The translations under genes and the position numbers were made by a program. 33,637 nucleotides of DNA, from the NCBI GenBank assembly GCA_016935635.1, contig JAFGQP010000220.1:1-33637 (forward strand), read 5' to 3'. Each line of letters starts with the position of its first letter. The first letter of the stretch is position 1. A model generated the notes under the pieces. It ran no database searches, was not told where the DNA came from, and saw only the letters and a list, made by a program, of their open reading frames with translations. This document shows positions 4,533-32,942 of this stretch, piece by piece. The stretch comes from Sedimentisphaerales bacterium (GTDB taxonomy: Bacteria > Planctomycetota > Phycisphaerae > Sedimentisphaerales > Anaerohalosphaeraceae).

Positions 4533-5720
4533 CTACAGAACAAACTGAGGGATGTTCAATGTTTCACCATCCTTCAGTGCTGATTGATGCGCAATTACTC
4601 CCGAAACTGACATATTAAGGGCCATTACAATATCAACCAAAGGTTTGCGATTTTCCAAAATTGACATCACAAACTCATTTATCAGATAACCATGGGAACC
4701 GCCATGTCCCCCCGCAGAGACCTTTGGAGGCAGCGGGAACTTCTTCGGGATTTCTATGTTTTCCAAGCCCAGAAATACATCATAAAAAGATCCCTTTTGT
4801 CCACGAATTCGCCCCATTTCACCATGGTGTCCCGGCGTGTCCCAACTGACGGCCATGCGTGCCATACCACCTTCACTGGTGCGAAATAACGCAATCTCTG
4901 TACCAAATGGGTTCTTATAGGCATTATTCTCAGGCGTGAATTGAGGCAGACTGCTGGGCATTCCCAGGCAGGTGACTTCTGTAAAGCTGCCGCCGGTTAC
5001 CCCGCAATAGTAAGCATTCGAATGGGTAGGGTAAAGCTGCGGCGGCAAGCCTATTCGCCAGCCCTTATAGGAATCAAGAGGTGTCGGCATATAATGATAA
5101 TATTCACCTTCACTATAAACCAATTTGCCCAGCTTGCCGCTATTGTATAGTTTCGTCATCGCATACAAGTCGTCATGAAAACAGGATGTCTCAAACATCA
5201 TATAGTTCAGGCCTGTTTTCTTCACGGTTTCGAAAAGCTGGTGGGCCTGTTCAACCGAATTGAAAACCGCAGGAACCGCACATGCCGCGTGCTTGCCATG
5301 ATTCAGCGCCAGGATGCAATGCTCTGCATGATGCGGAGCGTCCGTGGCACAGAAAATGGCTTCAATCTGATCATCTTTGACCATGTCCTCAAGGCTGGGA
5401 TATGTTTTTGTACATCGGCAATCCCGGGACAATCCCTGGCACCGCTCCGGCACGAGATCCGTCACCGCAACCACTTCAACGTTGGGATGATCCTGAAAGC
5501 CAAAAACAGCCCCGAATTTGCATAAACCATAGCCTGCAATACCGACTTTTATCTTGCGATCATGCTTTTGTTGCCATTCTTCCTCCACAGCAATCTCTGT
5601 GTGTGTATCACCGAAGCCCTGAATGATGTCTGCGGCCTGTGCAGCTTTTGCGGATACCCCTAAAATGGCGGCAGTTAATCCTGTTTTTTTCAAAAGGTTG
5701 CGTCTTGTCAGATTATTCAT
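4533..5720 (-). CDS. Tat-exported Gfo/Idh/MocA-family protein, EKP motif missing
   Basis: NAD(P)-binding oxidoreductase-fold protein of 395 residues. The N-terminus carries a twin-arginine signal (TRRNLLKK at 5-12, then a hydrophobic Ala-rich stretch), so it is probably exported folded with its cofactor. The Rossmann glycine motif GIAGYG is at 60-65. In typical family members the Rossmann domain ends with an EKP motif carrying the catalytic Lys; here the equivalent place reads CAVPAVF, so that Lys is absent. Near the C-terminus is GGHGGSHG, reminiscent of the His/Gly-rich motif of GH109-type NAD-dependent glycosidases. It could be a GH109-like enzyme or a divergent sugar dehydrogenase; I cannot choose. 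GGGAGCCAGGGT precedes the ATG, and the promoter at 5791-5819 fits this gene. Confidence 0.8.
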   Translation of the reverse strand: MNNLTRRNLLKKTGLTAAILGVSAKAAQAADIIQGFGDTHTEIAVEEEWQQKHDRKIKVGIAGYGLCKFGAVFGFQDHPNVEVVAVTDLVPERCQGLSRDCRCTKTYPSLEDMVKDDQIEAIFCATDAPHHAEHCILALNHGKHAACAVPAVFNSVEQAHQLFETVKKTGLNYMMFETSCFHDDLYAMTKLYNSGKLGKLVYSEGEYYHYMPTPLDSYKGWRIGLPPQLYPTHSNAYYCGVTGGSFTEVTCLGMPSSLPQFTPENNAYKNPFGTEIALFRTSEGGMARMAVSWDTPGHHGEMGRIRGQKGSFYDVFLGLENIEIPKKFPLPPKVSAGGHGGSHGYLINEFVMSILENRKPLVDIVMALNMSVSGVIAHQSALKDGETLNIPQFVL

Positions 5721-5790
5721 ACCCTGGCTCCCGATGAGGTGTTTGGCCTTTTTATGAGTTCGTGATTATGTTTCAATCCTAATTGGGGTA

Positions 5791-5819
5791 ATTCTATGAA
5801 AAACTACACAAACAGTCAA
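5791..5819 (-). promoter_or_regulatory. Sigma70-like promoter of the Gfo/Idh/MocA gene
   Basis: On the minus strand: -35 TTGACT (complement of 5814-5819), 17-base spacer, -10 TAGAAT (complement of 5791-5796), then directly TACCCCA and, a few bases on, GGATTGAA. Both downstream elements and the TTTTTC before the -10 are shared with the promoter at 1924-1951. Confidence 0.65.
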
Positions 5820-6123
5820 GAATCATTGCCCTTTTTATCCATTCCAGAAAAACTGATAGAAATTGAATTTCTGTATCTAGATGTGCGAGAATTCAGGGTT
5901 ACAGGCTGATTCTGAATGAAATTATCCCTTGAGACATGGCTAAGCACATTGCGTTGTGTCAAGTTGCCATCTTCGCGGCAAAAGAGACGTGTTGAGTATT
6001 CATTTGGTAAAGGTTTTAACCCTCCTGATGTTCATGAGATTGAATCAGATTTTATGTTCAAACTTTCTGTTGAGTTCATCGTATAAAATTAGAGAATGAT
6101 TGTTTAGACGTGGAGGTAATACT
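5820..6123. other. Intergenic region between divergent genes
   Basis: AT-rich stretch with no supported gene. A -10-like TATAAA at 6082-6087 lies about 40 bases before the small membrane-protein ATG at 6124, but a matching -35 is poor (the nearest, TTCAAA, is 19 bases away). I see no repeat or RNA structure worth calling. Confidence 0.4.
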
Positions 6124-6593: not shown

Positions 6594-8114
6594 TCATGGG
6601 GCAGGTTGCTTGCCATCTTTGATGGCCTCGTCTTCAGAGGTATACCCTCTATACTGATCGGCTCTGATAAGTATGGCACGTCGGTCTTCGATGGAATAAA
6701 AGTATCGGCCGGATTGACTGGCTACAAATTCAACTCCTGAGGTATCCACTTTGCCTTTCCATGAAAAACCGGGTACCTCCGTCAACGGTTCAGGGGTGGG
6801 GGGGATTCCGGTATTTCGGGTTCCAAAACTCTCGGGGGCGTCGGGAAATAGTTTTTCAACAGCCCGGCGATTCTGTTTCGGAGTACCTTCAGAACTCAAT
6901 ATTATAATCATGCTGCCAATGACAAGAATCAGTATCAATACAATCACGATTCGCCATACTATGCTGATTTTCGACAGCAGCCGTCTAAATCGCGTTTGTG
7001 CCGGCAGTTTCAGGCTTGTATGGGTAAGCTGACCTGGTATAGTGGTTCGTGTCTTCTGCAGCACACCCTGCCAGTCCATGGCTAGTGTGGAACCGCCGGG
7101 ACCACCTGTCGCCTGAGGGTCGGATGAAAAAGTTATGGATTCTGCGTGAAGAATGGCGGCAACCTCTCCCGCGGAGGGACGAACTCCCGGCTCCTTGGCC
7201 ATCATTCGCTGAATCAGCGAGGCCAGCTCCGGTGAACAGTTTGGCATATACTGAAGAATATCCGGCGGTTCAGAATGCAGATGCTGCCTGAGTATCTCCT
7301 CCATTTTCCCCCCGGCAAACGGAGGCCGACCGGCCAGAACATAATACAGGGTTGCCCCCAGGCTATAAATATCGACGGCCGGGGTTAGCGGCTCCCGCCG
7401 AATCACTTCCGGTGCCATATAGTGCGGCGTGCCAATGGATTGCTGGGCATAGGTATCAAATGGATCGTTGGGATCATCCACCCGGACCAGGCCGAAGTCG
7501 CTGATTTTCCCATGGCCGTTGCGGGTCACCAGAATATTGCTGGGCTTGATATCGCGGTGAATCATGCCCAGTTCGTGAGCAATTTGCAGCCCGATGGCCG
7601 CATCGGCGATAATTGGACACGCCCGGGATACCGGCAGGGCACCGGCAGCCTTGACAATCTCCTGAAGGCTGTTTCCAGAGACCATTTCCATGGCAATATA
7701 CCACCAGCCGGCGTGCTGGTTTATTTCATAGACGCGGACAATATTGGGATGCTCGATGGATGCGGCCGCACGGGCTTCACGGAGAAACTGCTCGACGGCA
7801 TCTTTGCCCTTTTCGCCTTCTGAAAGTTTTTTCCGCAGAACCTTCAGTGCTACAATCCGCTTTAAATGCGTATCTTCGGCCTGAATCACCAGCCCCATAG
7901 CGCCTTCCCCAATCAGTCGCAGCAATTTAAAATGCCCCATGACTTTGCCGACCCACGGCTGGGCTTTCGTGGCGGTTCTGTCCGAAACCGCCGGCATGCC
8001 GGTGTCAGAACTCAGCGGCTTGCCGCCGGAGCCATGGTTGGTCGCCAGCGTTTCCGCGAAGGCCTTCTGGTCGTCGGGACTGAACTGAGGGCTGTGTTTC
8101 GACTCATCCATCAT
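6594..8114 (-). CDS. Transmembrane Ser/Thr protein kinase (PknB/Hanks type)
   Basis: Kinase of 506 residues. Kinase domain at about 61-325: glycine loop GEGAMG 69-74, VALK with Lys91, HRDIKPSN 186-193 (catalytic Asp188), DFGL 206-209, and an APE-type motif (APEV) near 234, so all core catalytic residues are present. A juxtamembrane linker leads to one transmembrane helix at about 386-408, and a roughly 100-residue tail faces outward. The last 45 residues (EFVASQSGRYFYSIEDRR... EAIKDGKQPAP) resemble the Ada-type metal-binding module often fused to planctomycete proteins, but its Cys ligands are gone. The ATG lies 11 bases after the stop of the upstream secreted-protein gene, so the two are probably co-transcribed from the promoter at 9293-9321. 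Targets are unknown. Confidence 0.92.
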   Translation of the reverse strand: MMDESKHSPQFSPDDQKAFAETLATNHGSGGKPLSSDTGMPAVSDRTATKAQPWVGKVMGHFKLLRLIGEGAMGLVIQAEDTHLKRIVALKVLRKKLSEGEKGKDAVEQFLREARAAASIEHPNIVRVYEINQHAGWWYIAMEMVSGNSLQEIVKAAGALPVSRACPIIADAAIGLQIAHELGMIHRDIKPSNILVTRNGHGKISDFGLVRVDDPNDPFDTYAQQSIGTPHYMAPEVIRREPLTPAVDIYSLGATLYYVLAGRPPFAGGKMEEILRQHLHSEPPDILQYMPNCSPELASLIQRMMAKEPGVRPSAGEVAAILHAESITFSSDPQATGGPGGSTLAMDWQGVLQKTRTTIPGQLTHTSLKLPAQTRFRRLLSKISIVWRIVIVLILILVIGSMIIILSSEGTPKQNRRAVEKLFPDAPESFGTRNTGIPPTPEPLTEVPGFSWKGKVDTSGVEFVASQSGRYFYSIEDRRAILIRADQYRGYTSEDEAIKDGKQPAP

Positions 8115-9476: not shown

Positions 9477-11219
9477 GTGCAACTGAAGCTTCGACGTCAC
9501 AGGACAACCAGCTGCGATTCAAATAAGCCTGATTCGGTTGCAGGCAGACTGTTTGTCACTGTTTTTTTTATGTTCTTTCTGGGCATGGGATTGTTGTTTG
9601 AGGTTTTTCTCGTCCGAGAAGTCGTTTCAGCAATCCATCGGCGAAGCTGGTCTGTCGTCAGTTGCCGCATTCTGGAAAGTTCCGTCCTTCAGGAATCCAA
9701 TTCTGAAAATCCCTATCGGTTTGCCGTCAAGTACGAATATCAGGTCAATGGGGCGACGTATCAATCTACACGCTATCAATTCAAGGATTCCGGCTCTGAT
9801 AATTATGCTAAAGCACAGAAGCTGGCGGATCGTTATCAGGCCGGCCTCGAAACACAATGTTATGTCAATCCCAAAAATCCTTCCGAAGCGATCCTTGAAC
9901 AGGATAGTCTCAGTATGGCCTGCTTTGTCCTGATTCCCTTTGTGTTTGTGCTTATTGGTATCGGAGGTATCTATGGTACATGGTTCTATAAGTCAAAGCC
10001 AAAAACCCAGAAAGCCGTTTTACCCGAAGTAAAGGGAGAAACCAGAAAAAGCCAATGGGGATTGCTTTTGTTTGGATTTGTATTCTTCGCCGCGGGGTCG
10101 GGATTCAGTTATATCTTTTTGATTCAGCCCATGCTGGATATGTTTCGTGCCAGAACATGGATTGAAACGCCCTGCACCATCATTTCCGGACAGGTTCTCA
10201 GCCATGATTCGGATGATGGCACCACCTACAGTGTCGATATCTTATATGAATATGTGTTTGACGATAAGGAGCATCGCAGCAACCGCTATGATTTCATGAG
10301 CGGCTCCAGCAGTGGTTATCAGGGCAAAAGAGAGGTGGTGGATAAATACCTGAAGCTCAAAAATACCGTCTGTTATGTCAATCCCGAATCACCCGGCGAT
10401 GCGGTCCTGATTCGAAACCTGACCTGGAAATACGCGATTGGCCTGTTTCCCCTGATTTTCGTTGGGGTGGGTCTGGCGATCATGATTGGTGCAGTGATCG
10501 GCATGAAGCGTCGTGCGGCCAAAGAGTCCATCGGGGGCTGGAAACCCCAAACAGCATTTACGTCCTTCCATTCATCCGGCTATCAGCGGTATTATGGGCC
10601 AAGGGAAGACAAAATCGCCCTCAAGCCGCAAAAACATCCGATAGCAATGCTGGTTTTTCCATTGATATTCTGCGGATTCTGGAATGGCTTGGTTTCGTTT
10701 TTTGTGTATGAGGTATTCTCTGGATTTAAGACCGGCCGCCCGGATTGGTGTTTGACGCTGTTTATGATTCCTTTTGTCCTGGTGGGGATTGGAACGGTTA
10801 TCTGGGTGATTTACCAGTTCCTGGCCCTGTTTAATCCGCGATTCGAGATAGCTATTCAGCCTGCATTACTCTGTCTGGGCGGCAATGGTCAGCTCCAGTG
10901 GACAATCCATGGTCAGGCCGGTCGAATCCGCAAATTAGTCATTAAATTAACTGCCAGGGAAGAAGTCGTAAACACGGATGGAGAGGGCTCCAATACGCAT
11001 CGCAAGCTCTTCTACGAAAAAGAACTTCTGTCCACCGCGTTGCGGCATGAGATGAAAACGGGCCAGGTTCATTTTACGATTCCCCAAAGCACAATGCATT
11101 CCTTCGAGGCCGAACATAACAAGATTATCTGGGCGATTGACGTCAAGGCCGATATCCCGCTTTGGCCGGATGTCAAACAGGAATATCAATTCTGTGTGAG
11201 CCCTCAACCTGTGATATAG
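9477..11219 (+). CDS. Membrane protein with two DUF3592 domains and an arrestin-like tail
   Basis: Protein of 580 residues starting at GTG, with AAAGGAGG (9462-9469) 7 bases upstream. It alternates membrane helices (about 24-48, 140-165, 195-220, 315-345, 385-450) with two homologous soluble domains. Domain 1 (about 57-138) has VVSCRILESS, YEYQVNG, TQCYVNPKNPSEAIL. Domain 2 (about 225-312) has TPCTIISGQV, YEYVFDD, TVCYVNPESPGDAVL. The repeated pattern C.I..S ... YEY ... CYVNP is typical of DUF3592, a family of unknown function. The last 130 residues (KLVIKLTAREEVV, then FYEKELL, WAIDVKADIPLWPDVKQEY) look arrestin-like. The next gene encodes another arrestin-like domain 13 bases downstream, so the two products may pair. 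Confidence 0.75.
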   Translation: MQLKLRRHRTTSCDSNKPDSVAGRLFVTVFFMFFLGMGLLFEVFLVREVVSAIHRRSWSVVSCRILESSVLQESNSENPYRFAVKYEYQVNGATYQSTRYQFKDSGSDNYAKAQKLADRYQAGLETQCYVNPKNPSEAILEQDSLSMACFVLIPFVFVLIGIGGIYGTWFYKSKPKTQKAVLPEVKGETRKSQWGLLLFGFVFFAAGSGFSYIFLIQPMLDMFRARTWIETPCTIISGQVLSHDSDDGTTYSVDILYEYVFDDKEHRSNRYDFMSGSSSGYQGKREVVDKYLKLKNTVCYVNPESPGDAVLIRNLTWKYAIGLFPLIFVGVGLAIMIGAVIGMKRRAAKESIGGWKPQTAFTSFHSSGYQRYYGPREDKIALKPQKHPIAMLVFPLIFCGFWNGLVSFFVYEVFSGFKTGRPDWCLTLFMIPFVLVGIGTVIWVIYQFLALFNPRFEIAIQPALLCLGGNGQLQWTIHGQAGRIRKLVIKLTAREEVVNTDGEGSNTHRKLFYEKELLSTALRHEMKTGQVHFTIPQSTMHSFEAEHNKIIWAIDVKADIPLWPDVKQEYQFCVSPQPVI

Positions 11220-12955: not shown

Positions 12956-13531
12956 ATGTCAGATAATCCCGAAAACAAGGCAGATCAAAAAGGGCTGGAA
13001 GACAGCACCGACAGGGTGCAGGAAGAGCAGATATTATCATTAATATTCCAGTACCGGATTAAGTATATCTCCTATATCCGCTCGATCATCTGTGATTACC
13101 ATTTAAGTGAAGATGTCTATCAAAGTGTTTCCCTTGAAGCGATTCGTTCTGCCGGCAAATTTCAAAGCATGAAGCATTTGCAGCAGTGGCTCTGGGTCGC
13201 CTGCCGGACGCGGGCACTGAATGTCCTGAGAGAACAGAACAAGCCAGTCAAGGTTTTTGATAATGAAATGCTGGATATTATGCAGCCGTTTTGGGAAAAC
13301 CGCAGTGCTTATGAACAGCATGAGATTTTTTCCTATCTGGAAACCTGCATCAGCAGGCTATCGGCCTATGCTCGGGAAATTATTCATTTTCGTTATCGAG
13401 AAAACTTGACCGGCCAGAAGCTTGCCGATGCTCTCGGGCGTAAATGTGAATCGGTCTATGTGGCTTTAAGTCGTGTTCACAGGACTCTGGCAGAATGTAT
13501 TCAGCGGCAAAGCGCCATCCACAAAAAATAA
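12956..13531 (+). CDS. ECF-like RNA polymerase sigma factor (planctomycete group)
   Basis: Sigma-70 family factor of 191 residues. Region 2 spans about 25-105 (IKYISYIRSIICDYHLSEDV... QQWLWVACRTRALNVLRE), with the usual aromatic/basic pattern for -10 recognition. Region 4 spans about 130-185 (LSAYAREIIHFRYRENLTGQ, then a helix-turn-helix ending SVYVALSRVHRTL). AAGGGG lies about 5 bases before the ATG. The stop codon is separated by one base from the ATG of the FecR-type gene, so the two are translationally coupled, as in planctomycete sigma/anti-sigma pairs. The nearby LamG genes are candidate targets, but their promoter region looks housekeeping-like. Confidence 0.88.
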   Translation: MSDNPENKADQKGLEDSTDRVQEEQILSLIFQYRIKYISYIRSIICDYHLSEDVYQSVSLEAIRSAGKFQSMKHLQQWLWVACRTRALNVLREQNKPVKVFDNEMLDIMQPFWENRSAYEQHEIFSYLETCISRLSAYAREIIHFRYRENLTGQKLADALGRKCESVYVALSRVHRTLAECIQRQSAIHKK

Positions 13532-13532
13532 A

Positions 13533-15272
13533 ATGTCCAAAAACCAGCAAAATCAGAATAACTTGAGCAATGTGCCGGACGAGGCCGTCTTTGTTTGTCT
13601 GGCCTATGCCTATTTGGACAATCAGGCGACAGTCCAAGAGCAGGACCGGCTCAAGGCATGGCTGCAGCAATATCCGGCCCTGCGTGAGTTGTTTATCCAA
13701 ATATGCATGCAGGACCAGATGGTCTATGAGGCAGTCAATACCTCCGGCGGCTTTGTTTATCAGCCACAGGCTGCTCAGGAAGATCGAAACCTGTCGTTAT
13801 GGCGGGAATTAAGCTGGGAGGAGAAAAACGCCCCGGCTGTCCCGCAGGACAAAACGGCTGATGACACCGCCAAAATTATTCCCGACCGCAGCCGTATTGT
13901 TCCCATCAAGCATCGAGTCAATCGCTTGTCGGTGGCGACCATCATCTCGCTGGCCGCGGCTTTGCTGCTGATGATGACCTACATTTATTTCCATCCGTAT
14001 GCCAGCATTGAAACAGCGACGCTGGTGGATGCCATGAATGTGCAATGGGCGGAAGAAATGCGTATGCCCGGGCCTCAGGGACGCATTAAAACACTGGTCC
14101 CGATGACCCTGCTGCAGGGGATTGCCCGGATTCAAATGGACGATGGGGTTGATCTGGTTGTCGAGTCGCCCGCCAAATTTGAGCTGGCTACCTCGTCGGA
14201 GCTGCGTATGGACTATGGCAGAGTCTATGCCTATGTCTCTGAAATCGGGCGGGGTTTTACTGTCACGACGCCGAATTCCAGGATTGTTGATCTGGGCACA
14301 GAATTTGGGATTCAGGCCGATAATAATGGGCAAACGAATTTGCATGTTTTTCAGGGGAAGACTTACCTGGTTGCAGGAACCAAACAGAATGCCAAGACCG
14401 TTCAGACCCTGGAGGCAGGTCAGGCCCGAGGCATTCAAAGCAATGGAACAGTGCGAAGCCTGAGGTTGAAAACGGATGACTTTGTTCGTTCGTTTAATCC
14501 CAGACAGAACGTAGTCTGGAAGGGGCAGCCCCTGGATCTGGCAGATATGGTTGGCGGTGGAAATGGGTTTGGTACCGGCACGATCAATAAAGGCTATCAT
14601 CTGACGACGGGCAATGCTCTGCTGTTTGATGGACCCGTAAGTGTCTCAAACGAAGGGAGTTACAGTCCGATTTTTTCGAATCCGTTTGTGGATGGAGTAT
14701 TTATTCCAATCGGACCCGGCCAGATAGTGTCTTCACTGGGGCATCAATTTGATGATTGCCCGGCCACCAACGGAGGAGCCTGGAGCGGGACGGTCTTTAA
14801 TGGGGCCCTGCATTACAGCTATTCAAACCCGAAAATCTATCGGCACCAGTTGCGTCTGGCAGGCAAAGCGTATGGTGTTGCCGGCAATCCTGCCATCAAT
14901 ATGCACGCCAACTGCGGAATTACCTTCAATCTGGATGAAATCCGACGTCTGGTGCCGGGCTATGATGTTGGGCAATTTACTTCCTTGTATGGAATCAGCG
15001 AGACGTTTTTTGATTTTTATGACGTACGGGATATTCCGGATATTGTGGTGCCGCGGGTCGATTTCTTTGTACTGGTTGACGGCAAGGTCCGGTTTTCGAA
15101 GAAGTCTGTTGCTCCCGAGGCAGGCAAACGGCTTCTGGCCGAAGTTCCCTTGCTGCCCGGGGACCGTTTTCTGACCCTGATTACCACCCAGAGCGATGAC
15201 CCGTATGCAATCAGCTATGACTGGGCCCTGTTTGCCGAACCGCAGCTTGTATTGACAAGGGTAAGCCAGTGA
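13533..15272 (+). CDS. FecR-domain transmembrane protein with C-terminal NPCBM-like domain
   Basis: Protein of 579 residues and probable membrane regulator of the sigma factor encoded just upstream. The ATG at 13533 is one base after the sigma stop; the longer frame from 13473 would overlap the sigma gene and lacks support. Cytoplasmic part about 1-130; transmembrane helix about 132-153; FecR core about 190-300 with VVESPAKFEL, GRGFTVTTPNSRIVDLGTEF and HVFQGK. The C-terminal 160 residues include GITFNLDEIR, VDFFVLVDGKVRF and YDWALFAEPQL. They resemble the NPCBM-type module of the metalloprotease at 112-1896. The layout (cytoplasmic anti-sigma-like part, FecR sensor, carbohydrate-binding-like tip) suggests sensing of a surface or environmental glycan; this is inference. 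Confidence 0.85.
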   Translation: MSKNQQNQNNLSNVPDEAVFVCLAYAYLDNQATVQEQDRLKAWLQQYPALRELFIQICMQDQMVYEAVNTSGGFVYQPQAAQEDRNLSLWRELSWEEKNAPAVPQDKTADDTAKIIPDRSRIVPIKHRVNRLSVATIISLAAALLLMMTYIYFHPYASIETATLVDAMNVQWAEEMRMPGPQGRIKTLVPMTLLQGIARIQMDDGVDLVVESPAKFELATSSELRMDYGRVYAYVSEIGRGFTVTTPNSRIVDLGTEFGIQADNNGQTNLHVFQGKTYLVAGTKQNAKTVQTLEAGQARGIQSNGTVRSLRLKTDDFVRSFNPRQNVVWKGQPLDLADMVGGGNGFGTGTINKGYHLTTGNALLFDGPVSVSNEGSYSPIFSNPFVDGVFIPIGPGQIVSSLGHQFDDCPATNGGAWSGTVFNGALHYSYSNPKIYRHQLRLAGKAYGVAGNPAINMHANCGITFNLDEIRRLVPGYDVGQFTSLYGISETFFDFYDVRDIPDIVVPRVDFFVLVDGKVRFSKKSVAPEAGKRLLAEVPLLPGDRFLTLITTQSDDPYAISYDWALFAEPQLVLTRVSQ

Positions 15273-16001: not shown

Positions 16002-16967
16002 ATGAAAAAGCAAATGTTAGTATTATTGGCCGTAGTGAGTTTGTTATCAATGACTGTAAGTGCTGATACTGTTGCCTATTGGCGTTTCGAAGAAGGCCCG
16101 GCGGATGCTCAGGTCCCGCATCCTGTTGCGGATGGACAGTATTATGAGGGTGTTGTTGATTCATCTGGAAATGGCAACGGATTGTCCGTGTGGAATGAAG
16201 GCGCTGCCGGTTATGTATATAAGACCGAAGTCGGAGGCTCGGTTGTTGATGGCGTTGCCAATAATTACAGTGTGAAGAATTCCGGTGGTGGTCCGGCAAT
16301 GTGGACAGATACAGCCGATGCGATTAATTCGATAACCCCTGCGGCATTTACCGTTGAAGCGACATTTAAACTGGAAAATGGCGGTTATAAGACTATCGTT
16401 GGCCGCGACTCCCGTGGAACCGCAACCGCAGGTACCAATACAGACGGCAATCTGGCAGCCCTGTATTTCCAGGCCATTCCAAACAATGGCCTTGCGATCA
16501 AGTTCTGCGACGTTTCGGGTTATTGGCATGAGGCTCTTGCCGCTCCCGGTTCGTATGTTGGCTTTGACTGGGGCACTGATCCGGATGGAACACAGGCACA
16601 TTGGTACAGCATGGCGGGTGTCAGCGATGGAACAATGCTGTCTTTGTGGCTTAGAGACCTAACCACTGCCGGCAGCTGGCAGATGATTGCTCAGACCGAT
16701 ATGTCGGCTGTCAACCCCGGCAGTCCCGATACTGCTCTGTCGGCGGGTGCCGGCGATGGCGGTGACTGGGATGCTGGAAACTGGACCGTGGGACGCGGCC
16801 TGTATGGCGGCGGCCATGGCGACCGTGCTTATGGCTACATCGATGAAGTCCGTATTTCCGATGCAGCGCTGAACGTAGACCAGTTCCTGATGGTTGTTCC
16901 GGAACCGGCCACGATGGCGGTATTGGGTCTTGGCGCCCTGTTGGCGGCTCGTATGCGTCGTAAGTAA
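16002..16967 (+). CDS. Secreted LamG-domain protein with PEP-CTERM sorting signal
   Basis: Exported protein of 321 residues. GGAGGT at 15989-15994 lies 7 bases before the ATG. Signal peptide 1-21 (MLVLLAVVSLLSMTVSA). Then one LamG/concanavalin-like beta-sandwich domain (about 22-290), recognisable from VAYWRFEEGP, FTVEATFKLENGGYKTIVGR and YGYIDEVRISDAAL. The C-terminus is a textbook PEP-CTERM signal: VPEPATMAVLGLGALLAARM with a terminal RRK, processed by an exosortase, which is not in this window. Its whole LamG domain is paralogous to the N-terminal domain of the next gene (for example VAYWRFEEGPA and AGDGGDWD in both), a tandem duplication. Probable role: glycan binding or surface matrix; ligand unknown. 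Confidence 0.88.
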   Translation: MKKQMLVLLAVVSLLSMTVSADTVAYWRFEEGPADAQVPHPVADGQYYEGVVDSSGNGNGLSVWNEGAAGYVYKTEVGGSVVDGVANNYSVKNSGGGPAMWTDTADAINSITPAAFTVEATFKLENGGYKTIVGRDSRGTATAGTNTDGNLAALYFQAIPNNGLAIKFCDVSGYWHEALAAPGSYVGFDWGTDPDGTQAHWYSMAGVSDGTMLSLWLRDLTTAGSWQMIAQTDMSAVNPGSPDTALSAGAGDGGDWDAGNWTVGRGLYGGGHGDRAYGYIDEVRISDAALNVDQFLMVVPEPATMAVLGLGALLAARMRRK

Positions 16968-17050: not shown

Positions 17051-17115
17051 ATTTATCAGGATGTTGCAGTGCAGACAATTGTATCTGTATTATTAACTGA
17101 TTTATGGAGGTTACA

Positions 17116-19734
17116 ATGAACAAAAGGAATTTATTTATCGTGTGCGGTGTATGCCTGATGCTTGCAGGCATTACCGCCAGCGCCAAGACGGTTGCGTACT
17201 GGCGTTTTGAAGAAGGTCCGGCAGGGGTCAATGTTCAGCATGGTGAAGCTGCTGGTGTTTTCAGCCCGGATCTGCTGGACAGCTCAGGCAACGGCAATGC
17301 TTTGTCGGTCTGGGACAGCGGCCAATGGCAGTTTCGCGCGAATGTTCCTTATGCGAACATTCCGTGGACCGGTGAATCGAACGTTCTAAGCGTTAAAAAC
17401 GTCTCCGGCTCTCCGACACTGTGGAACACCTCGCTGGCCACCTGGGAGCCCGCTCAGTGGACCATTGAAGCGACATTCAAGGCCGAAGCAGGCGGTTGGA
17501 AAACGATCGTCGGCCGTGATTCACAGGGCGCTGCTATTAATGGAGGCAATACGGACCCGGGTCTGTCGGCTTTATATTTCCAGACCACCGACAATCCGAC
17601 CATGGGTCTTGCCATCAAGTACGTCGATAAGGCGGGCTACTGGCATGATGCCGTTTCAGCAGCCAATGCTTATACAGGCTTTACCTTCTCTTCAGATCCT
17701 GATGGCAACAATGCTCCGTGGTACACCATGGCGGCCACTTCTGACGGCCGCTATCTGCGGCTGTATCTATACAACCACAACACCCCTGAAAACGGGTATG
17801 TCATGATTGCCGAGACCGATATGACTGTGACCAATCCCGGCAGCACGGATACGGCGTTTAGCCTGGGTGCCGGCGACGGCGGCGACTGGGATGTTGGTAA
17901 CATTACCGTGGGTCGCGGCATGTATGGCGGTGGCCATGGCGATCGTTTCTATGGCTATCTGGACGAAGTTCGTCTTTCCGACAAAGCGTTGAGCCCCAGC
18001 GAATTCCTGCTGGCCCCCGGCTATGTCCAGCCTGTATCACCGGCCAAAGATGAATATCTGGCCACCACGGCTGCCACGACTTATACGTGGACAACAAATA
18101 TTGATCTGATGACTGAAAATGAGGTCATGTTTGATCATTATGCGATTTATATTGCCGATAATGCGGAAGATTTGACAGCCGAACAGCCGTCAACGTCTCT
18201 GCATTCGAATGTGATCAATCAAGTAGCCACCCAGTCCTACAGCGGCTACAATGGTACCTATGCTTATGGTGAGGATTACTACTGGCGTATTGATATGGTC
18301 ACCATGGATCCCAATGATACGGATCCCAACAATGTTGTTTATAATATTCCCAATCTCTATCAGGGTATTCCGGTTCGCTTCTTTGGGCCTCGCGCCTGCC
18401 CGGCAGTATCCATTTCCGGTAACGTGTCGATTCTTCCTGATCCCATCACTCAAATTTACACGGCACAGGATGCAGTCTTCACCGCAGGTATCACACGCGG
18501 TTCTGTCGCTGTGGATGCGATCAGCTGGTACAAGGTCAATGGTGTTCAGGATGCTGACATTTTTGATCCCAATGATCTGCCTGATTCGCTGATTACCCAC
18601 GTGCCTGGTGTAACGGAGATTGCGTATATTCCGGATCTGACGACGGCAACATCAACGACACTGACGGTTGTGGATGCAGCTGTCACTGACAATGGTGACT
18701 ACTACGCCAAAGTGCGTCTGGTCGATCCGCTTGGCGGCTCAACCGGCTGCGATGGCGTGTCCCCGACGACCAACCTGTTTGTTCGCGATGATACGAGTGC
18801 CTCTACGAATTACCTGGTTCATCGGTATGGATTTGATGGCAATGCCAATGACTCCATCGGAACCGCGCATGGTACCGTGGTGGATTTGGGCGATGTCAAT
18901 CACACCTTTGAAAGCGGTCAGCTTGCACTGAACAACGCCGGCTTGAATTCTCGTCCGATTCAAAATGATCCCAATATCGGTGACAGACTTCTGGATGCAC
19001 AGGGTGCTTATGTGGACCTGCCCAATGGACTGATTTCGCCCCTGGGCAAGAGTGCCACCTTCATGGCATGGTTTACCTTTACCCCGATTGCCAATGATGG
19101 ATGGCCTCGCATATTTGATTTCGGCACATCAACCGGCGGCGAAGGCTTCGCGACCGGCGCCGACGGCGTCAGGTATGTCAATGGTCTTCCGTACGTAGAC
19201 ACTGCTTCTGCGGATGCCCAGGAATACGTGATGCTTACCCCGCAGCAGGGCACCGGTTCGGCATGGCGTTTCGAATCTCTGGTTCGTCCGCCGTCAAACA
19301 GCGTGAATGTTGATCCGTCCAATAATGCAGAGCTGAAGAATGTTGAAGCCTGTGTGGCGTGTGTGTTTGATGCAGCCACCGGATTCAACACGGTCTACCT
19401 CAATGGTGTCCAGGTTCTTCGGGCGGCCAATACCACACATACTCTGGCCAACATCAATGATGTCAATAACTGGCTGGGTCGTTCGCAGTGGCCGGATGCG
19501 ATGTTCAGCGGCAAGCTGAATGAATTCCGCATCTATGACATCCCCCTGAGCAAGTACTGGGTCAAGGCCTACTTCGAACAGGGTGCGGATGATTATACCT
19601 CGACTCCGAATCCCTGTATTCAGGATGAGGCCAATGCCATGGACTTCAACACCGACTGTGTTGTGGATATGCTGGACTTTGCGGCATTTGCCGAACAGTG
19701 GCTGTCTTGCGACCGTCTGTATGGCTGCAACTAA
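17116..19734 (+). CDS. Large secreted double-LamG protein with dockerin-like C-terminus
   Basis: Exported protein of 872 residues. The ATG at 17116 is preferred over the in-frame ATG at 17104, because the latter lies inside the ribosome binding site (GGAGG 17106-17110, 5 bases upstream). Signal peptide 1-24. LamG 1 (about 25-295) is paralogous to the preceding gene's domain. An FN3-like region (about 298-425) has YTWTTNID and DYYWRIDMV. An Ig-like region (about 427-555) ends with DNGDYYAKVRLVD. LamG 2 (about 563-825) has YGFDGNANDSIG, ATFMAWFTF and FSGKLNEFRIYD. The end (about 840-865) has DFNTDCVVDMLDFAAFAEQW, a calcium-loop pattern typical of single dockerin-like tails in this group. There is no PEP-CTERM, so its sorting differs from its neighbour. 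Probable function: binding of extracellular polysaccharide. Confidence 0.85.
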   Translation: MNKRNLFIVCGVCLMLAGITASAKTVAYWRFEEGPAGVNVQHGEAAGVFSPDLLDSSGNGNALSVWDSGQWQFRANVPYANIPWTGESNVLSVKNVSGSPTLWNTSLATWEPAQWTIEATFKAEAGGWKTIVGRDSQGAAINGGNTDPGLSALYFQTTDNPTMGLAIKYVDKAGYWHDAVSAANAYTGFTFSSDPDGNNAPWYTMAATSDGRYLRLYLYNHNTPENGYVMIAETDMTVTNPGSTDTAFSLGAGDGGDWDVGNITVGRGMYGGGHGDRFYGYLDEVRLSDKALSPSEFLLAPGYVQPVSPAKDEYLATTAATTYTWTTNIDLMTENEVMFDHYAIYIADNAEDLTAEQPSTSLHSNVINQVATQSYSGYNGTYAYGEDYYWRIDMVTMDPNDTDPNNVVYNIPNLYQGIPVRFFGPRACPAVSISGNVSILPDPITQIYTAQDAVFTAGITRGSVAVDAISWYKVNGVQDADIFDPNDLPDSLITHVPGVTEIAYIPDLTTATSTTLTVVDAAVTDNGDYYAKVRLVDPLGGSTGCDGVSPTTNLFVRDDTSASTNYLVHRYGFDGNANDSIGTAHGTVVDLGDVNHTFESGQLALNNAGLNSRPIQNDPNIGDRLLDAQGAYVDLPNGLISPLGKSATFMAWFTFTPIANDGWPRIFDFGTSTGGEGFATGADGVRYVNGLPYVDTASADAQEYVMLTPQQGTGSAWRFESLVRPPSNSVNVDPSNNAELKNVEACVACVFDAATGFNTVYLNGVQVLRAANTTHTLANINDVNNWLGRSQWPDAMFSGKLNEFRIYDIPLSKYWVKAYFEQGADDYTSTPNPCIQDEANAMDFNTDCVVDMLDFAAFAEQWLSCDRLYGCN

Positions 19735-25830: not shown

Positions 25831-26610
25831 ATGGAAACGTTTTTAAAAGAATTTCAGGACTCTGTCTATCATTTATCTCCAGTGGTATTGATTGGAGCAG
25901 GATTTGTACTGATTTGGATGGGACTGAGTCTATGGTTGGGCGGCTTAAAATGGCTGAAAATCTTAGCCGCCTTTGCAGGCGCTGCAGTTGGTTATACTCT
26001 GGCCAGTTGCTGGACTGAAAATCATCTATATATGCTTATCAGTTTTGCGGTTCTTGGCGGGTTTATAGCCCTGTTTATCGAAAAAACGATCGTGGTCTTC
26101 GGGGTGGCGGTTCTGACAGCGGTTCTGGTTAACGTTCTCATTGCCTGGCCGACGCTGGCGGAAGACAAAACCTGGGAAGATACCCCCAAGATGGAACTGT
26201 CCAAAGATTCTCCGCCCAACGTGGTTCAGAGCCTGACTGTGCTTGAAACCTATACCCGGTATGTGTGTCAAAAAAGTGTCCAGATTATCAAATCGCTGGG
26301 CAGTGTTGGATACACGGCTGCCATTATCGCAATCCTGGTGGTTTTGGGTGTTGGATTTGTCATGCCCCGCGGCGTCTGTGCCTTGGGATGTGCCGTAATT
26401 GGTGTTAGCTGGATTGCACTGGGCCTGCTGCTGTTATTACTCTATAAAGGTGCCAAACCCATCGATTATGTGATTCAGCAGGCTGAAGTTCTGGCGATTA
26501 CTGCGGTGATAGTGGTTGCCTTTGGAACCCTTGTGGACCTGGCGCTCTGTCCGGATATGAGTAAAAAGAAATCCGGCATGATTGATAAATCGAAAGGAAA
26601 GAAAAAATGA
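25831..26610 (+). CDS. Polytopic membrane protein, unknown function (TMEM198/DUF4203-like)
   Basis: Protein of 259 residues with about six to seven hydrophobic spans (roughly 17-35, 39-60, 66-100, 160-180, 184-210, 220-240) and a soluble loop at about 108-155 rich in Asp, Glu and Lys. It ends in a basic tail (DKSKGKKK). AGGAG lies 3 bases before the ATG, partly within the hairpin at 25792-25824. The Gly/Ala-rich helices (FAGAAVGYTLA) recall DUF4203-like proteins, but I do not firmly recognise it. Its stop overlaps the next start (ATGA), so both proteins are made together and may form a complex. Confidence 0.65.
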   Translation: METFLKEFQDSVYHLSPVVLIGAGFVLIWMGLSLWLGGLKWLKILAAFAGAAVGYTLASCWTENHLYMLISFAVLGGFIALFIEKTIVVFGVAVLTAVLVNVLIAWPTLAEDKTWEDTPKMELSKDSPPNVVQSLTVLETYTRYVCQKSVQIIKSLGSVGYTAAIIAILVVLGVGFVMPRGVCALGCAVIGVSWIALGLLLLLLYKGAKPIDYVIQQAEVLAITAVIVVAFGTLVDLALCPDMSKKKSGMIDKSKGKKK

Positions 26611-27293
26611 TTCCATGGCTGCTTGCTGAAACCGCGCCGGAAACGACGTCTTCCAACTTCAGTATGGATCCGGCATTGAATTTTGTCTGGGAACAGATTA
26701 CCAATCTCACATGGCTTCAGGCCGTTGTCGGAATATCCTTCGGCATGGTCTACCTGCTGTATGGTTGGAGAATATTCCGAATCCTGGTGGTCATTGCCTT
26801 TGCGCTGGTTGGCATGTTCCTGGGAATTATGGCCGGCCAGAAATTCGGCAGTGAATTGATGGGCGGCATCATGGGAGTCATCTTGTTTGCGGTCCTGGCG
26901 ATGAGCCTCGTCAAATGGTGCGTCTCCATTCTCGGTGCAGCCGCTGGAGGTGTACTGACAGGCGGTCTCTGGTATGCATTCGGTCTGCCGGAACAGTATA
27001 TCTGGGCCGGCGCAATCGTGGGCGTGGTAGCCGGCGGGATGATGTCATTTATCCTGCTCAAGATTTCCGTCATGCTGTTTACCAGCCTCGGCGGTTCAGC
27101 GATATTGGCAATCAATTTCCTGGCGTTGCTCCACCAATATGAGACCAGGGTCGTAAGCCCGCCGGGAACGACTGTTCACGATTTAATTTTCCAGAAAACA
27201 TGGTTTCTTCCGATGGTTATCATTATTCCTACAATTATTGGAATGATTGTCCAGAATAAACTGATTAAGCAATCCAGCAAATGGGACTTCTGA
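26607..27293 (+). CDS. Polytopic membrane protein, partner of the preceding one
   Basis: Protein of 228 residues with about six to seven transmembrane spans (WLQAVVGISFGMVYLLYGW, then FRILVVIAFALVGMFLGIMA, GGIMGVILFAVLAMSLV, and more to about 215) linked by short loops. The Gly-rich spans (GAAAGGVLTGGLW, GAIVGVVAGGMMSF) resemble DUF4203/TMEM198-type domains. It overlaps the upstream gene by 4 bases (ATGA). The two share the same kind of helix pattern (L.YGWRIFRIL here, LWLGGLKWLKIL there), so they may be diverged duplicates. Function unknown. Confidence 0.65.
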   Translation: MIPWLLAETAPETTSSNFSMDPALNFVWEQITNLTWLQAVVGISFGMVYLLYGWRIFRILVVIAFALVGMFLGIMAGQKFGSELMGGIMGVILFAVLAMSLVKWCVSILGAAAGGVLTGGLWYAFGLPEQYIWAGAIVGVVAGGMMSFILLKISVMLFTSLGGSAILAINFLALLHQYETRVVSPPGTTVHDLIFQKTWFLPMVIIIPTIIGMIVQNKLIKQSSKWDF

Positions 27294-29532: not shown

Positions 29533-30678
29533 ATGAAAGTAGAGTATCGACCGTACCAGGGAAGAAGTGGAAATAATTCAAGAACCCGGATCATCCTGAT
29601 CGTTCTTGCTGCAGCGATTGTCGGGCTGGTTGCTCTTAACCGTTGGAAGAAAAAACAGGCAGAGCAGGCCCAGCTGGAAGAATCGTCAGAAGCGGTGACC
29701 GCCGTGGAGCCGGCCTCAAAGAATGATTTGCGGACGACGACGGTTGATACCGCGGCCGAACCGCTTGAACCGGCCGTCGGTTCAGTGGAGACTGACAGCA
29801 CTGCTGTTCCAGTGCTGCCTGCAGCACCTGTTACACAGCCATCTGCCGAACCCGCTCAACCGGTTCAGGCTCCCGTTCAGGATGCTGTCCAGCCTGCACC
29901 TGTGGTAGATACCATTACCAGCCCTGAAGCCGCCGCCATGATTCGCCAGGCGGTACAGGATGCTACCGCCGGCAAGATAATATCCGCCCGCGACCAGCTC
30001 AATCATGCCCTGAAATTGAACCTCAGCGATCCGGTTCGTGACGAGGTTAAAAAGCAGTTGACCAAGCTGTCGGACACCTGGTTGTTCAGCAAACAGGTTG
30101 CCGTTGGTGATACCATGACCGAGCTGTACAAAGTGCAGCCCGGTGACGTGCTGGCCATCCTGTGCAGAAAATACAAGGTCCCGCACGAAGCCATCGAAAG
30201 AATCAACGGCATTACCAACCCGGAACGGCTCCAGGCAGGCCAGACCATCAAGGTTATTCATGGTCCATTTAATGCTGTCGTCAGCAAAAAGAATTTCACG
30301 ATGGATATCTATCTGCAGGGCATCTTTGTCAAGCAGTACAAAGTCGGCCTGGGCAAAATAGAGCATGACACTCCCACAGGCAAATGGAAAGCCACCGCCG
30401 GCGGCAAGATGATCAAGCCTACCTGGACAGACCCCGATTCGGGCCGCGTCTATCAGGGCAGCGATCCGGATTATCCGCTCGGCTCACGCTGGATCGCCCT
30501 GGAAGGTCTGGAAGGTGATGCCAGGGGCCGCACGGGATTTGCGATACACGGCACCAAAGAACCCGAAACCATCGGTACCCGTGCCTCACGCGGCTGCATC
30601 CGTCTGTTTAATGGCGATGTTGTTGAAGTCTATGATTTGCTGGAAGCGGGCATCTCGGAGGTCGTGGTTGTTGAGTAG
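29533..30678 (+). CDS. L,D-transpeptidase with LysM domain, membrane anchored
   Basis: Cell-envelope enzyme of 381 residues. A short basic N-terminus, then one membrane helix (about 19-36), a Pro/Ala/Val-rich spacer (about 75-127), a helical linker, LysM (about 198-242, LYKVQPGDVLAILCRKYKVP) for peptidoglycan binding, and a YkuD catalytic domain (about 247-379). The active-site motif is HGTKEPETIGTRASRGCIRL, with His339 and nucleophile Cys355. It should make 3-3 peptidoglycan cross-links or attach proteins. The finding agrees with planctomycetes having peptidoglycan. A separate transcript from the VWA/ExbBD cassette is possible, as a hairpin follows it. Confidence 0.92.
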   Translation: MKVEYRPYQGRSGNNSRTRIILIVLAAAIVGLVALNRWKKKQAEQAQLEESSEAVTAVEPASKNDLRTTTVDTAAEPLEPAVGSVETDSTAVPVLPAAPVTQPSAEPAQPVQAPVQDAVQPAPVVDTITSPEAAAMIRQAVQDATAGKIISARDQLNHALKLNLSDPVRDEVKKQLTKLSDTWLFSKQVAVGDTMTELYKVQPGDVLAILCRKYKVPHEAIERINGITNPERLQAGQTIKVIHGPFNAVVSKKNFTMDIYLQGIFVKQYKVGLGKIEHDTPTGKWKATAGGKMIKPTWTDPDSGRVYQGSDPDYPLGSRWIALEGLEGDARGRTGFAIHGTKEPETIGTRASRGCIRLFNGDVVEVYDLLEAGISEVVVVE

Positions 30679-30707: not shown

Positions 30708-30780
30708 TGCTATGCAATAAAGATGAATGATTAGCGGAAATGGCCGGCGGATCCGGCCTTTTCCTTTCATAGGTGAAGCG

Positions 30781-31641
30781 ATGACAAAAAGGCGGGCAAA
30801 AATCAGTACCGCAGCAGCAGGGGGGTCGGCCATAGCACACTTGCTGCTGCTGGGCGCATTTGCCGCGGTGAGCCTGCAGCCGGCCGAGACACCCGATGGA
30901 ACCCTTGGTGCCGTATCGGTTCAGCAAATCCAGCAGGTCATTGAACAGCCTCTGATAACCGAAAAACCTGAAATTAAACCGCCTCCCCCTGAACCGGAAC
31001 CTCAAAAAGCACCCCAGCAAACAAAGCCGGTCCAGCCGCCTGTCCAGACACCGCCCAAATCCTATCCGGCCCCCAAAACCGTGTCCAGCAGTCCTCGGCA
31101 GGATGCCTCCTTCTTCGGCAACAAAACCGCCGCACAGAATATCTGCTTTGTAGTCGATTGCTCCGGCAGTATGTACGGCCGGCTCGGTATGATTCAGCGT
31201 CAATTAAAAAGCTGCATCGCTGCCCTGTTTGATACCCAATCGTTTTGTGTAATATTCTTTATGGATGGCAACTCGCTGCTGGAAACCGGCTCTGGCACAC
31301 TGATGCCTGCCACCGGCCAAGCCAAGTCCGAGGCCTTTACGCTGATTGATAGTGTCCATCTTGGCGGCCAGACCAATGCCCTTCAGGCCCTCCAGCGGGC
31401 CATGCAGCTTCGGGATAGACGCGGCAGGGCCGTCCAGGTCGTCTATTTCCTGACCGATGGTTTCGATTTGTCCGAAACCCCCGGCCAGCCCTTCGATACG
31501 CAGATTCAGACCATTCGCAAATCCTGTGCCCCCGGCGCGGTGATTCATACCATCGGTCTCTGGGTCTCCGAACAGGACCAGCAGCGGTTAAAGCAAATTG
31601 CCGAGATGACGGGCGGTACATTTCTGCATATTGATAATTGA
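30781..31641 (+). CDS. VWA-domain protein with TonB-like N-terminal half
   Basis: Protein of 286 residues from the ATG at 30781, chosen over an in-frame start at 30727 because AGGTG lies just upstream and the basic TM-leading N-terminus (MTKRRAKIS) fits. One membrane helix (about 11-31) is followed by a Pro/Glu/Lys-rich segment (about 55-97, EKPEIKPPPPEPEPQKAPQQ), like the periplasm-spanning part of TonB. Then comes a von Willebrand A domain (about 119-286) with an intact metal-ion site: DCSGS (Asp126, Ser128, Ser130), GGQTNALQAL and LTDGFD. No TonB C-terminal domain is present. The next genes encode ExbB/TolQ and ExbD/TolR, so the VWA domain is probably moved or loaded by the proton motor. 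Confidence 0.85.
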   Translation: MTKRRAKISTAAAGGSAIAHLLLLGAFAAVSLQPAETPDGTLGAVSVQQIQQVIEQPLITEKPEIKPPPPEPEPQKAPQQTKPVQPPVQTPPKSYPAPKTVSSSPRQDASFFGNKTAAQNICFVVDCSGSMYGRLGMIQRQLKSCIAALFDTQSFCVIFFMDGNSLLETGSGTLMPATGQAKSEAFTLIDSVHLGGQTNALQALQRAMQLRDRRGRAVQVVYFLTDGFDLSETPGQPFDTQIQTIRKSCAPGAVIHTIGLWVSEQDQQRLKQIAEMTGGTFLHIDN

Positions 31642-31713
31642 CAAGGCCTGTATTTTCGTGTCAGATAAGAACATGATGATGAATTCCAACAACCAATATG
31701 GGATAGCAAGCTG

Positions 31714-32499
31714 ATGATGATACTGGCAGCCCAAAACTCTGCGGGACCCTTGTCGCAGACCTATTTTACACAGTTTGTCGTGGCCGGCGGACCGATTGTC
31801 TGGTTCGTCCTGCTGCCGATGTCCGTGGCCGGGATTTACTTCTGGCTGGAGTTATGCATCACGATACGCCGTCGCCGGCTTCTGCCGCCGGATGTCAGTT
31901 CCGACATTGCCACTGTGGCCCAGCGTCACGGTACAGCCAGCCTGCCGTCCCGGTTCAGCGGCAACATCGATATGGTCAGCCGGGCGGTCTGTGCCGCTTT
32001 TGCCAAGACCCGCAAAATTCGTCCCACCCATGAGCTGCTCAGCCAGATTGCCGGCGAGAGCCTCCAGGAACAGGGCATCAAGCTCCTCCGAAAGACCGAA
32101 TGGTGCAATCTGCTGGGCAATGTCGCCCCGATGGTGGGTCTGTTTGGTACGGTCTGGGGCATGATTGAGGCATTCAACCTGCTGGGCATTGCCGCCGGGC
32201 AGCCTCGCCCGGGGGAGCTGGCTTCTGCGATTTCGGTTGCCCTGGTGACGACCTTCTGGGGCCTGCTGGTTGCCATTCCGTCACTGTTTATTGCAGGCCT
32301 GTTTCGTTCCCGTATCGAAGCGTTGATTGCCGAAGCTGCTGTGGAGACCGAGACGCTGCTGGAAAGTCTGCTGGAAGCCCGTCAGCATCAGGCCGGTGCA
32401 GGCGGTAAGTCCTTGGACTCCTCCTCCAAATCCAGCCCCGATACGGAAGCCGAAAATATCTCCGAGTCCTCCAACTCATCTTTCCCGGTGCGCAAATGA
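31714..32499 (+). CDS. MotA/TolQ/ExbB proton channel family protein
   Basis: Inner-membrane proton channel subunit of 261 residues. Three spans: about 24-48 (GGPIVWFVLLPMSVAGIYFW), about 133-158 (LGNVAPMVGLFGTVWGMIEA) and about 172-200 (AISVALVTTFWGLLVAIPSL). The motif GLFGTVWGMIEAF, and the threonines in spans 2 and 3, are the ones expected to line the channel. A large cytoplasmic part lies between spans 1 and 2. The C-terminal tail is Ser-rich (SSSKSSPDTEAENISESSNS), longer than usual. The stop overlaps the ExbD start (ATGA). Confidence 0.92.
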   Translation: MMILAAQNSAGPLSQTYFTQFVVAGGPIVWFVLLPMSVAGIYFWLELCITIRRRRLLPPDVSSDIATVAQRHGTASLPSRFSGNIDMVSRAVCAAFAKTRKIRPTHELLSQIAGESLQEQGIKLLRKTEWCNLLGNVAPMVGLFGTVWGMIEAFNLLGIAAGQPRPGELASAISVALVTTFWGLLVAIPSLFIAGLFRSRIEALIAEAAVETETLLESLLEARQHQAGAGGKSLDSSSKSSPDTEAENISESSNSSFPVRK

Positions 32500-32942
32500 A
32501 AGTCGTGCTCTACCATCAGCGAAAAGACGCAGGCTTTGATTTGACCCCGGTCATCGATGTGGTTTTTCTGCTGATTATTTTCTTTATGCTCGTTTGCCAG
32601 TTTGGTGCCGCCGAGCATTTCGAAGCACTGCTGCCGGATAAAATTCAATCCGCCGATCCCACCCAGCTTCAGCTTGATTCGACCGTCAGTGTCAATGTCG
32701 TCCAGCAGGAAGGCAAGATTGTGTATGCAATCGGCTCCGATGTCCTGTCCGGCGACGATACGGAACTACTGCCTGCGATGATTAGTGCCGGAATTGACAG
32801 CCGCCTGGCCGATGGCAGCTCATCCCGCATTGTCCGGCTGCGTTGCGACAAGCACATCCCATTCGAAAAAATCCGTCCCGTTCTGGCCGGTATTGCCCGG
32901 AGCCGAGCCGAAAAAATCCAGTGGGCCGCATTTAACGAATAA
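32496..32942 (+). CDS. ExbD/TolR family protein
   Basis: Proton-channel partner of 148 residues. One transmembrane helix about 19-36 with the essential membrane Asp21 in DLTPVIDVVFLLIIFFM, the classic family pattern. A periplasmic domain follows (SVNVVQQEGKIVYAIGSDVL... IVRLRCDKHIPFEKIRPVLA). It overlaps the ExbB-like gene by 4 bases, so translation is coupled. With the VWA/TonB-like protein it completes a three-part energised complex. Confidence 0.92.
   Translation: MKVVLYHQRKDAGFDLTPVIDVVFLLIIFFMLVCQFGAAEHFEALLPDKIQSADPTQLQLDSTVSVNVVQQEGKIVYAIGSDVLSGDDTELLPAMISAGIDSRLADGSSSRIVRLRCDKHIPFEKIRPVLAGIARSRAEKIQWAAFNE

Follow-up and report, generated by a model that had tools for sequence, protein, structure and literature searches.

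A VWA-domain protein probably coupled to an ExbB-ExbD motor in Sedimentisphaerales: a candidate Ton/Tol-like force transducer

What would an ExbB-ExbD proton motor move when the gene beside it encodes a VWA domain instead of a TonB domain? The question is raised by a 33,637-nucleotide stretch of a Sedimentisphaerales bacterium (assembly GCA_016935635.1, contig JAFGQP010000220.1, positions 1 to 33,637), here called the window, in which three consecutive genes on the plus strand encode a VWA-domain protein (30781..31641, 286 aa), an ExbB/TolQ-type motor subunit (31714..32499; PF01618, MotA_ExbB, 1.6e-26) and an ExbD/TolR-type motor subunit (32496..32942; PF02472, ExbD, 4.2e-12). A sequence-only reading of this locus had suggested that the motor transmits force through the VWA protein to a partner in the envelope rather than importing nutrients. 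We found good support, as judged from conserved motifs and gene content, for a coupling between the motor and the VWA protein. The VWA-ExbB-ExbD trio very probably forms a Ton/Tol-like machine in which the VWA transducer docks on the motor and is moved by it, with envelope maintenance as the favored, tentative role.

The VWA protein was analyzed by Pfam, homologue alignment and AlphaFold2. Pfam matched the protein to VWA_3 (7.6e-10) and VWA (2.8e-9) and recognized neither a TonB_C domain nor a TolA-type head in it. A weak match to the NCBIfam model tolA_full over residues 16-83, with E 0.014 and a score of 14.7 bits where the cut-off is 59.45, was not counted. The AlphaFold2 model, built on a 31-sequence alignment (mean predicted local distance difference test score (pLDDT) 83.4, predicted template-modeling score 0.64), consists of a single membrane helix at residues 10-29 (30808..30867), a low-confidence linker at residues ~30-108 (30868..31104) and a VWA domain that spans residues 119-280 (31135..31620), pLDDT exceeding 90 at most positions from around residue 111 onward. 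The top Foldseek matches of the model were all VWA-domain proteins: the inter-alpha-inhibitor heavy chain, a Catenulispora VWA protein, the calcium-channel alpha-2/delta subunit and integrin I domains. The linker has 81 residues, of which 22% are Pro and 52% are Pro, Glu, Lys or Gln, and its median length is 94 across 67 homologues. The metal site is complete in the window protein (Asp126-x-Ser128-x-Ser130, Thr198 and Asp226). Its Asp and Ser positions are nearly invariant in the homologue alignment, and D-x-S-x-S was matched in 68 of 70 non-redundant homologues (70 left of 94 loci once those sharing the same C-terminal 150 residues were merged), the remaining two being masked by N (L062) and unmatched (L093).

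What the sequence-only reading had described, namely a one-helix protein with a Pro/Glu/Lys-rich spacer and an intact metal site, a VWA domain in place of the TonB receptor-binding domain, and ExbB and ExbD genes overlapping by 4 bases (32496-32499), was thus borne out in full. An alternative in-frame ATG at 30727 would extend the VWA protein to 304 aa. Since AGGTG is seen by eye just 5' of ATG 30781, the shorter 286-aa form is favored, and ATG 30781 is most likely the start of the gene.

The evidence for docking lies in the membrane helix. In the E. coli Ton and Tol systems, cryo-electron microscopy described in the text of PMC12215075 identifies the motif Ser-x3-His-x6-Leu-x3-Ser (SHLS), the Leu and Ser of which are less conserved in Ton as well; Ser16 and His20 of TonB contact Ser34 and Trp38 of ExbB, with Pro190 next in line. 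Numbered from ATG 30781, the window protein has Ser16 (30826-30828), His20 (30838-30840), Phe27 and Ser31 at the SHLS spacings. In the 31-row VWA alignment His20 is invariant (31/31), Ser16 is kept in 29 rows with Thr in the other two, and 29 rows have Phe or Leu at position 27. Ser/Thr-x3-His is present in 69 of the 70 non-redundant homologues (67 Ser, 2 Thr), located further in in L103, and the sole homologue without it, L082, is cut by a contig end, so that the motif is found in 69 of 69 readable homologues. As a control, [ST]-x3-H occurs in 1 of 63 N-terminal helices of the L,D-transpeptidase (LDT) encoded at the same loci.

The linker also carries a conserved Pro and a stretch that may be TonB-like. 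Residue 63 is Pro in all 31 aligned homologues and lies in a PKPK-like stretch, 43 residues past the conserved His; from the alignment, this conservation appears to exceed the need of a plain spacer. A D-box-like stretch, VSVQQIQ at residues 45-51 (30913..30933), resembles the ISVTMVT of E. coli TonB in a comparison made by eye and with no control, and AlphaFold2 places a low-confidence helix at residues 47-54. In the text of PMC10907165, an E. coli TonB peptide carries ISVTMVT at residue numbers 45-51.

The three-gene order, which the sequence-only reading had proposed to look for in other planctomycetes, recurs in relatives of the window and is therefore more than chance. A profile search of 294 genomes across the phylum gave E <=4.5e-98 in seven, all from the window's order and the window genome (G000) included, and the best match outside the order was 5.2e-36. 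In a scan of named genomes, 200 stretches encode a relative; in the best 80 of the 200, which were kept, the named records are planctomycete by title, titles not always being reliable. Where at least 1.5 kb of sequence follows the VWA gene (62 loci), ExbB lies directly downstream at 57; where at least 2.6 kb follows (55 loci), 50 have exactly one ExbD, five have none and no locus has two. In the sample searched, the one-ExbD form is confined to one order.

The same five loci lack both the adjacent ExbB and ExbD. At two of them (L038 in G014 and L057 in G026) the cassette ExbB is located elsewhere in the genome; at L076 it lies 2.1 kb downstream; no ExbB was found within 6 kb at L096, and no cassette-type ExbB was found in the genome of L062 (G025). 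Pairing of the VWA protein with unrelated genes, which the sequence-only reading had named as a sign against coupling, is thus not the pattern observed. The displaced ExbB gene of G014, on contig C27 (L202), is separated from an OmpA-domain gene by ~4.5 kb that holds other genes; the two lie at ~5569-5868 and 10353-11213.

The joint presence of VWA and motor was scored in 40 related genomes. VWA was counted present at E <=1.2e-10 in a frame of 290-424 aa, weaker matches in 666-860-aa frames (G009, G021 and G024) being counted absent, and ExbB was counted present at E <1e-50 with the A2 profile. VWA is present in 34 of the 40 genomes, 31 of which have the window kind in one copy each and three a related kind. 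Both VWA and ExbB are present in 33 genomes and both are missing in six, while VWA occurs alone in one (G025) and ExbB alone in none. The six genomes without either gene (G004, G009, G013, G021, G024 and G034) are spread over four genera, and three of them are less than 90% complete (71, 76 and 89%).

LDT was not found in G009. The other five of these genomes retain LDT and FTHF ligase, and four of the five RarA; no VWA, ExbB or ExbD was recognized in the flanks of their LDT genes, to which the ExbD search was limited. G013 and G021 each carry, on the opposite strand, a gene with a weak RarA-profile match that ends within ~45 bases of the end of the LDT frame. Since such an opposite-strand gene is also found at 23 of 55 cassette loci with room, the two sites look like the same locus minus the trio. 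The VWA and motor genes go together, and the LDT gene is not bound to them. Where a genome has neither VWA nor ExbB but an otherwise comparable FTHF-LDT locus, it amounts to a natural knock-out.

The motor subunits were compared with solved structures, against which the ExbB profile matched TolQ best and ExbB next, and the ExbD profile matched ExbD best. All 19 aligned ExbBs, types from VWA cassettes with paired ExbDs included, share Ser37, Pro189 and the pore Thr in the motifs GTV and TT, and Ser37 aligns with the TolQ Ser that precedes x3-Trp. Asp21 of ExbD takes the proton-site position by alignment (26/26), and every one of the 58 ExbD frames in a larger set has the proton-site Asp, 51 by strict pattern and seven by reading. 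In the ExbB tree, the cassette ExbBs form a single clade (99/98, counting L153 and L156 in the cassette type), and the TonB-linked ExbBs of the window genome are separate from the VWA-linked ones (99/94). The ExbBs of the paired-ExbD cassettes form the next branches (nearest fork 92/78), with long branches L160 and L165 leaving the paired-ExbD portion of the tree unsure.

We then analyzed whether a TonB encoded elsewhere might belong to this motor, the other sign against coupling named beforehand. The window genome, which is 87.6% complete, has one TonB_C gene, located on contig C144 with its own two ExbBs and ExbD, and on contig C33 two ExbBs and an ExbD are found with a TonB-dependent receptor. 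In three further genomes (G001, G029 and G030; 99, 97 and 96% complete) no MotA/ExbB-family match other than the VWA-linked ExbB was obtained, and TonB_C was not found. A dedicated TonB for the VWA-linked motor was thus not seen in these genomes. Among the 40 genomes TonB_C is found in 12 and TonB_2 in two, and TonB_C is missing from 9 of the 16 cassette-bearing genomes that are at least 95% complete, by models that a divergent TonB, TolA or TolB may escape. The co-occurrence of VWA and TonB_C (12 genomes with both, 22 with VWA only, 0 with TonB_C only and 6 with neither) gave no significant link (p 0.15). In genomes where no other motor of the family was found, TonB or Tol would interfere less with a test of what the VWA protein pulls on.

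From what is known of the motor family, an ExbB5-ExbD2 motor in the inner membrane would convert proton flow to movement. The VWA helix would dock on the side of ExbB via Ser16 and His20, as TonB and TolA do, and the Pro-rich linker would span the periplasm. The VWA head would then grip a protein ligand, an acidic residue of the ligand probably sitting on the metal ion of the head as in VWA domains generally, and pull. The load would most likely, if tentatively, be a peptidoglycan- or outer-membrane-bound protein that serves envelope maintenance. The cassette is widespread in a group without recognizable TolB and mostly without TonB, which suggests envelope upkeep over surface adhesion.

Several observations weigh against this reading. 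The Fisher p value for co-occurrence of VWA and ExbB (1.8e-6) is inflated by the relatedness of the genomes, and G025, which is 84% complete, has VWA without a cassette-type ExbB. G009, G024 and G034 are 95-98% complete and have neither VWA nor ExbB, so that the two genes are dispensable; the existence of three genomes at least 95% complete with neither gene argues against an envelope-upkeep role. The N-terminal 65 aa of the VWA protein matched no TonB or TolA among solved structures (best E 0.64), so that the conserved motif, and no sequence match, carries the Ton/Tol likeness. None of the 19 aligned ExbBs keeps the Trp with which ExbB contacts His20 of TonB, the window protein having Ile. 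Position 31 is Ser in 3 of 31 VWA homologues; Ser31 fits the window as the fourth SHLS residue, yet was rejected as such because it is not conserved. The metal-site Thr is replaced by Pro or Ala in 6 of 31 homologues, so that the metal is perhaps not needed by every homologue and its binding may be dispensable in some.

It could be argued that the VWA protein is not moved at all. VWA domains usually bind protein ligands, and the protein could be a static membrane-anchored adhesion or scaffold protein whose gene merely travels with an ExbB and ExbD that drive something else. The Ser/Thr-x3-His motif kept in every readable homologue, the presence or absence of VWA and ExbB together, and the lack of another TonB_C protein in G001, G029 and G030 make this highly improbable. 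Alternatively, the cassette may power the adjoining LDT, with the VWA head pulling or positioning a cell-wall crosslinking enzyme. The LDT gene (29533..30678, plus strand) encodes an N-terminal helix followed by LysM and YkuD domains by Pfam, in agreement with the LysM L,D-transpeptidase originally called at this position, and its product holds HGT...SRGCIR. It lies directly upstream of VWA at 63 of the 64 loci with at least 1.3 kb (62 scored, and L103, where LDT is overlapped by an over-extended frame, by inspection), the exception being L057. A 4-base overlap joins the LDT and VWA genes in L039, L040 and L052, and the two genes remain adjacent in G014 and G022, from where ExbB moved away. 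However, LDT is kept in G004, G013, G021, G024 and G034 without VWA and ExbB and is found apart from VWA in G026, and its adjacency is cheap, since RarA and FTHF ligase are also conserved neighbors (all three genes are upstream of VWA at 45 of 49 loci with at least 3.6 kb). Between the LDT and VWA genes, a GC-rich hairpin at 30742-30758, followed by a T-rich stretch, may terminate the LDT transcript; it adds a weak point against a joint function, with 11 terminator-like hairpins in the region against 4.8 expected. The upstream LDT thus stands as a conserved neighbor and not as an obligate part, being kept in five of six genomes without VWA and ExbB, and to call it integral to the cassette was ruled out as too strong. 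LDT is a possible, not a required, partner of VWA, and it is unlikely that the cassette serves to power it.

On the other hand, the load may be sought among the targets of Tol. The VWA protein may do the work of TolA on OmpA/Pal-like lipoproteins without TolB, which would be consistent with TolB_N being found in 0 of the 40 genomes by a search that was positive in E. coli, Caulobacter and Bacteroides controls, with the restricted occurrence of TonB_C (12/40), and with OmpA domains in 40 of 40, a count that includes some matches adjoining MotA-type genes that are probably flagellar (MotB-like). By eye, the N-termini encoded by eight OmpA-domain genes, from four genomes, look lipoprotein-like. 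Set against this, the three genomes at least 95% complete that have neither VWA nor ExbB keep OmpA proteins, no OmpA gene adjoins the trio in the window, and the models could miss a divergent TolA or TolB; we regard such a substitution as unlikely. Rather unlikely, too, is the broader proposal that in Sedimentisphaerales the trio is a general envelope-tension motor replacing Tol-Pal, in which a metal-regulated head with a metal-ion-dependent adhesion site (MIDAS) grips a protein bound to the outer membrane or peptidoglycan, at the point where TolA would act on Pal/TolB. It was also proposed, for VWA transducers of this kind, that the head has a role in gliding or adhesion after the example of the myxobacterial gliding VWA protein (text of PMC12204202), and the VWA fold would suit such a surface motor. 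One copy each in 31 of the 40 genomes of the order sample points instead to housekeeping and makes a gliding or adhesion motor very unlikely here. A defence (Zorya-like) system was considered and rejected, none of the three proteins having a PADLOC match at E of 1 or below.

Other genes of the window were noted alongside. Two overlapping genes at 25831-26610 and 26607-27293 encode membrane proteins of several helices each, for which Pfam gave no match above cut-off, and an apparent homologue of the product of 26607-27293 is seen by eye in another genome (L208 10003-10701), where it lies near a gene for an OmpA-domain lipoprotein. A eukaryote-like protein kinase is encoded on the minus strand at 6594-8114 (Pkinase 2.2e-56). 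FecR-domain, PEP-CTERM and Laminin_G_3 proteins are encoded consecutively at 13473-15272, 16002-16967 and 17104-19734, a row that suggests a group of exported surface proteins.

How does a VWA transducer moved by an ExbB-ExbD motor compare with known systems? Williams-Jones et al. (June 2025; PMC12204202) described SHLS-bearing vWA force transducers from sequence, Planctomycetes included. The force-transmission proposal of the sequence-only reading thus stands as far as the coupling is concerned (motif in 69/69 readable homologues, co-occurrence in 33/40 genomes), and it does not stand as a new class. This was the only paper found that joins vWA with these motors; in the text of PMC2754498 and PMC10719396, VWA and ExbD genes are mentioned separately, and both were set aside as not relevant. 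No description of the one-ExbD form was found in the literature, the supplements and figures of PMC12204202, which could show it, aside.

Like the window protein, the Tichowtungia-type SHLS vWA transducers in the text of PMC12204202 have a Ser-x3-His helix, a Pro-rich or disordered linker of ~100 residues, a VWA head and adjacent TolQ/TolR-like genes. The window form differs from them in having one ExbD, in having the VWA gene first, and in the RarA-FTHF-LDT genes upstream. According to the same text, loci of the PVC (Planctomycetes-Verrucomicrobia-Chlamydiae) group often include a TPR gene and paired tolR-like genes, which are not defining; in the window proteins scanned, no TPR match above the Pfam cut-off was found, the other neighbors of the relatives lying outside the scan. 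A second family of that paper, TPH-vWA, has no tolR/exbD gene and carries an Asp in the VWA membrane helix, whereas the window cassette has an ExbD gene and a helix 10-29 without Asp.

Paired-ExbD VWA cassettes of planctomycetes (L065, L070, L071, L136-L139 and others) share VWA and ExbB with the window and differ in their two ExbDs. In L065, L070 and L071 the VWA protein has S-x3-H as in the window; L065 also encodes a ~790-aa protein with TPR matches below the Pfam cut-offs, and L070 and L071 a protein of similar length. Among the more distant named loci, L135-L151, two ExbDs are found at 9 of 17, and G008 and G039 hold both the one-ExbD and the paired-ExbD cassettes.

With TonB-ExbB-ExbD the trio shares the motor family, the helix motif at the S16/H20 numbering and the type of linker, but the window VWA protein has no TonB_C and the ExbBs are apart in the tree. 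With TolA-TolQ-TolR it shares the motor family, the window ExbB profile scoring best against solved TolQ, but Pfam recognized no TolA-type head and TolB_N was not found in the 40 genomes searched. The class was published in 2025, and the window cassette is, on its gene content, a simpler relative within it, with one ExbD and no TPR gene recognized. It would offer a stripped-down natural version of the proposed class, with one transducer, one ExbB and one ExbD.
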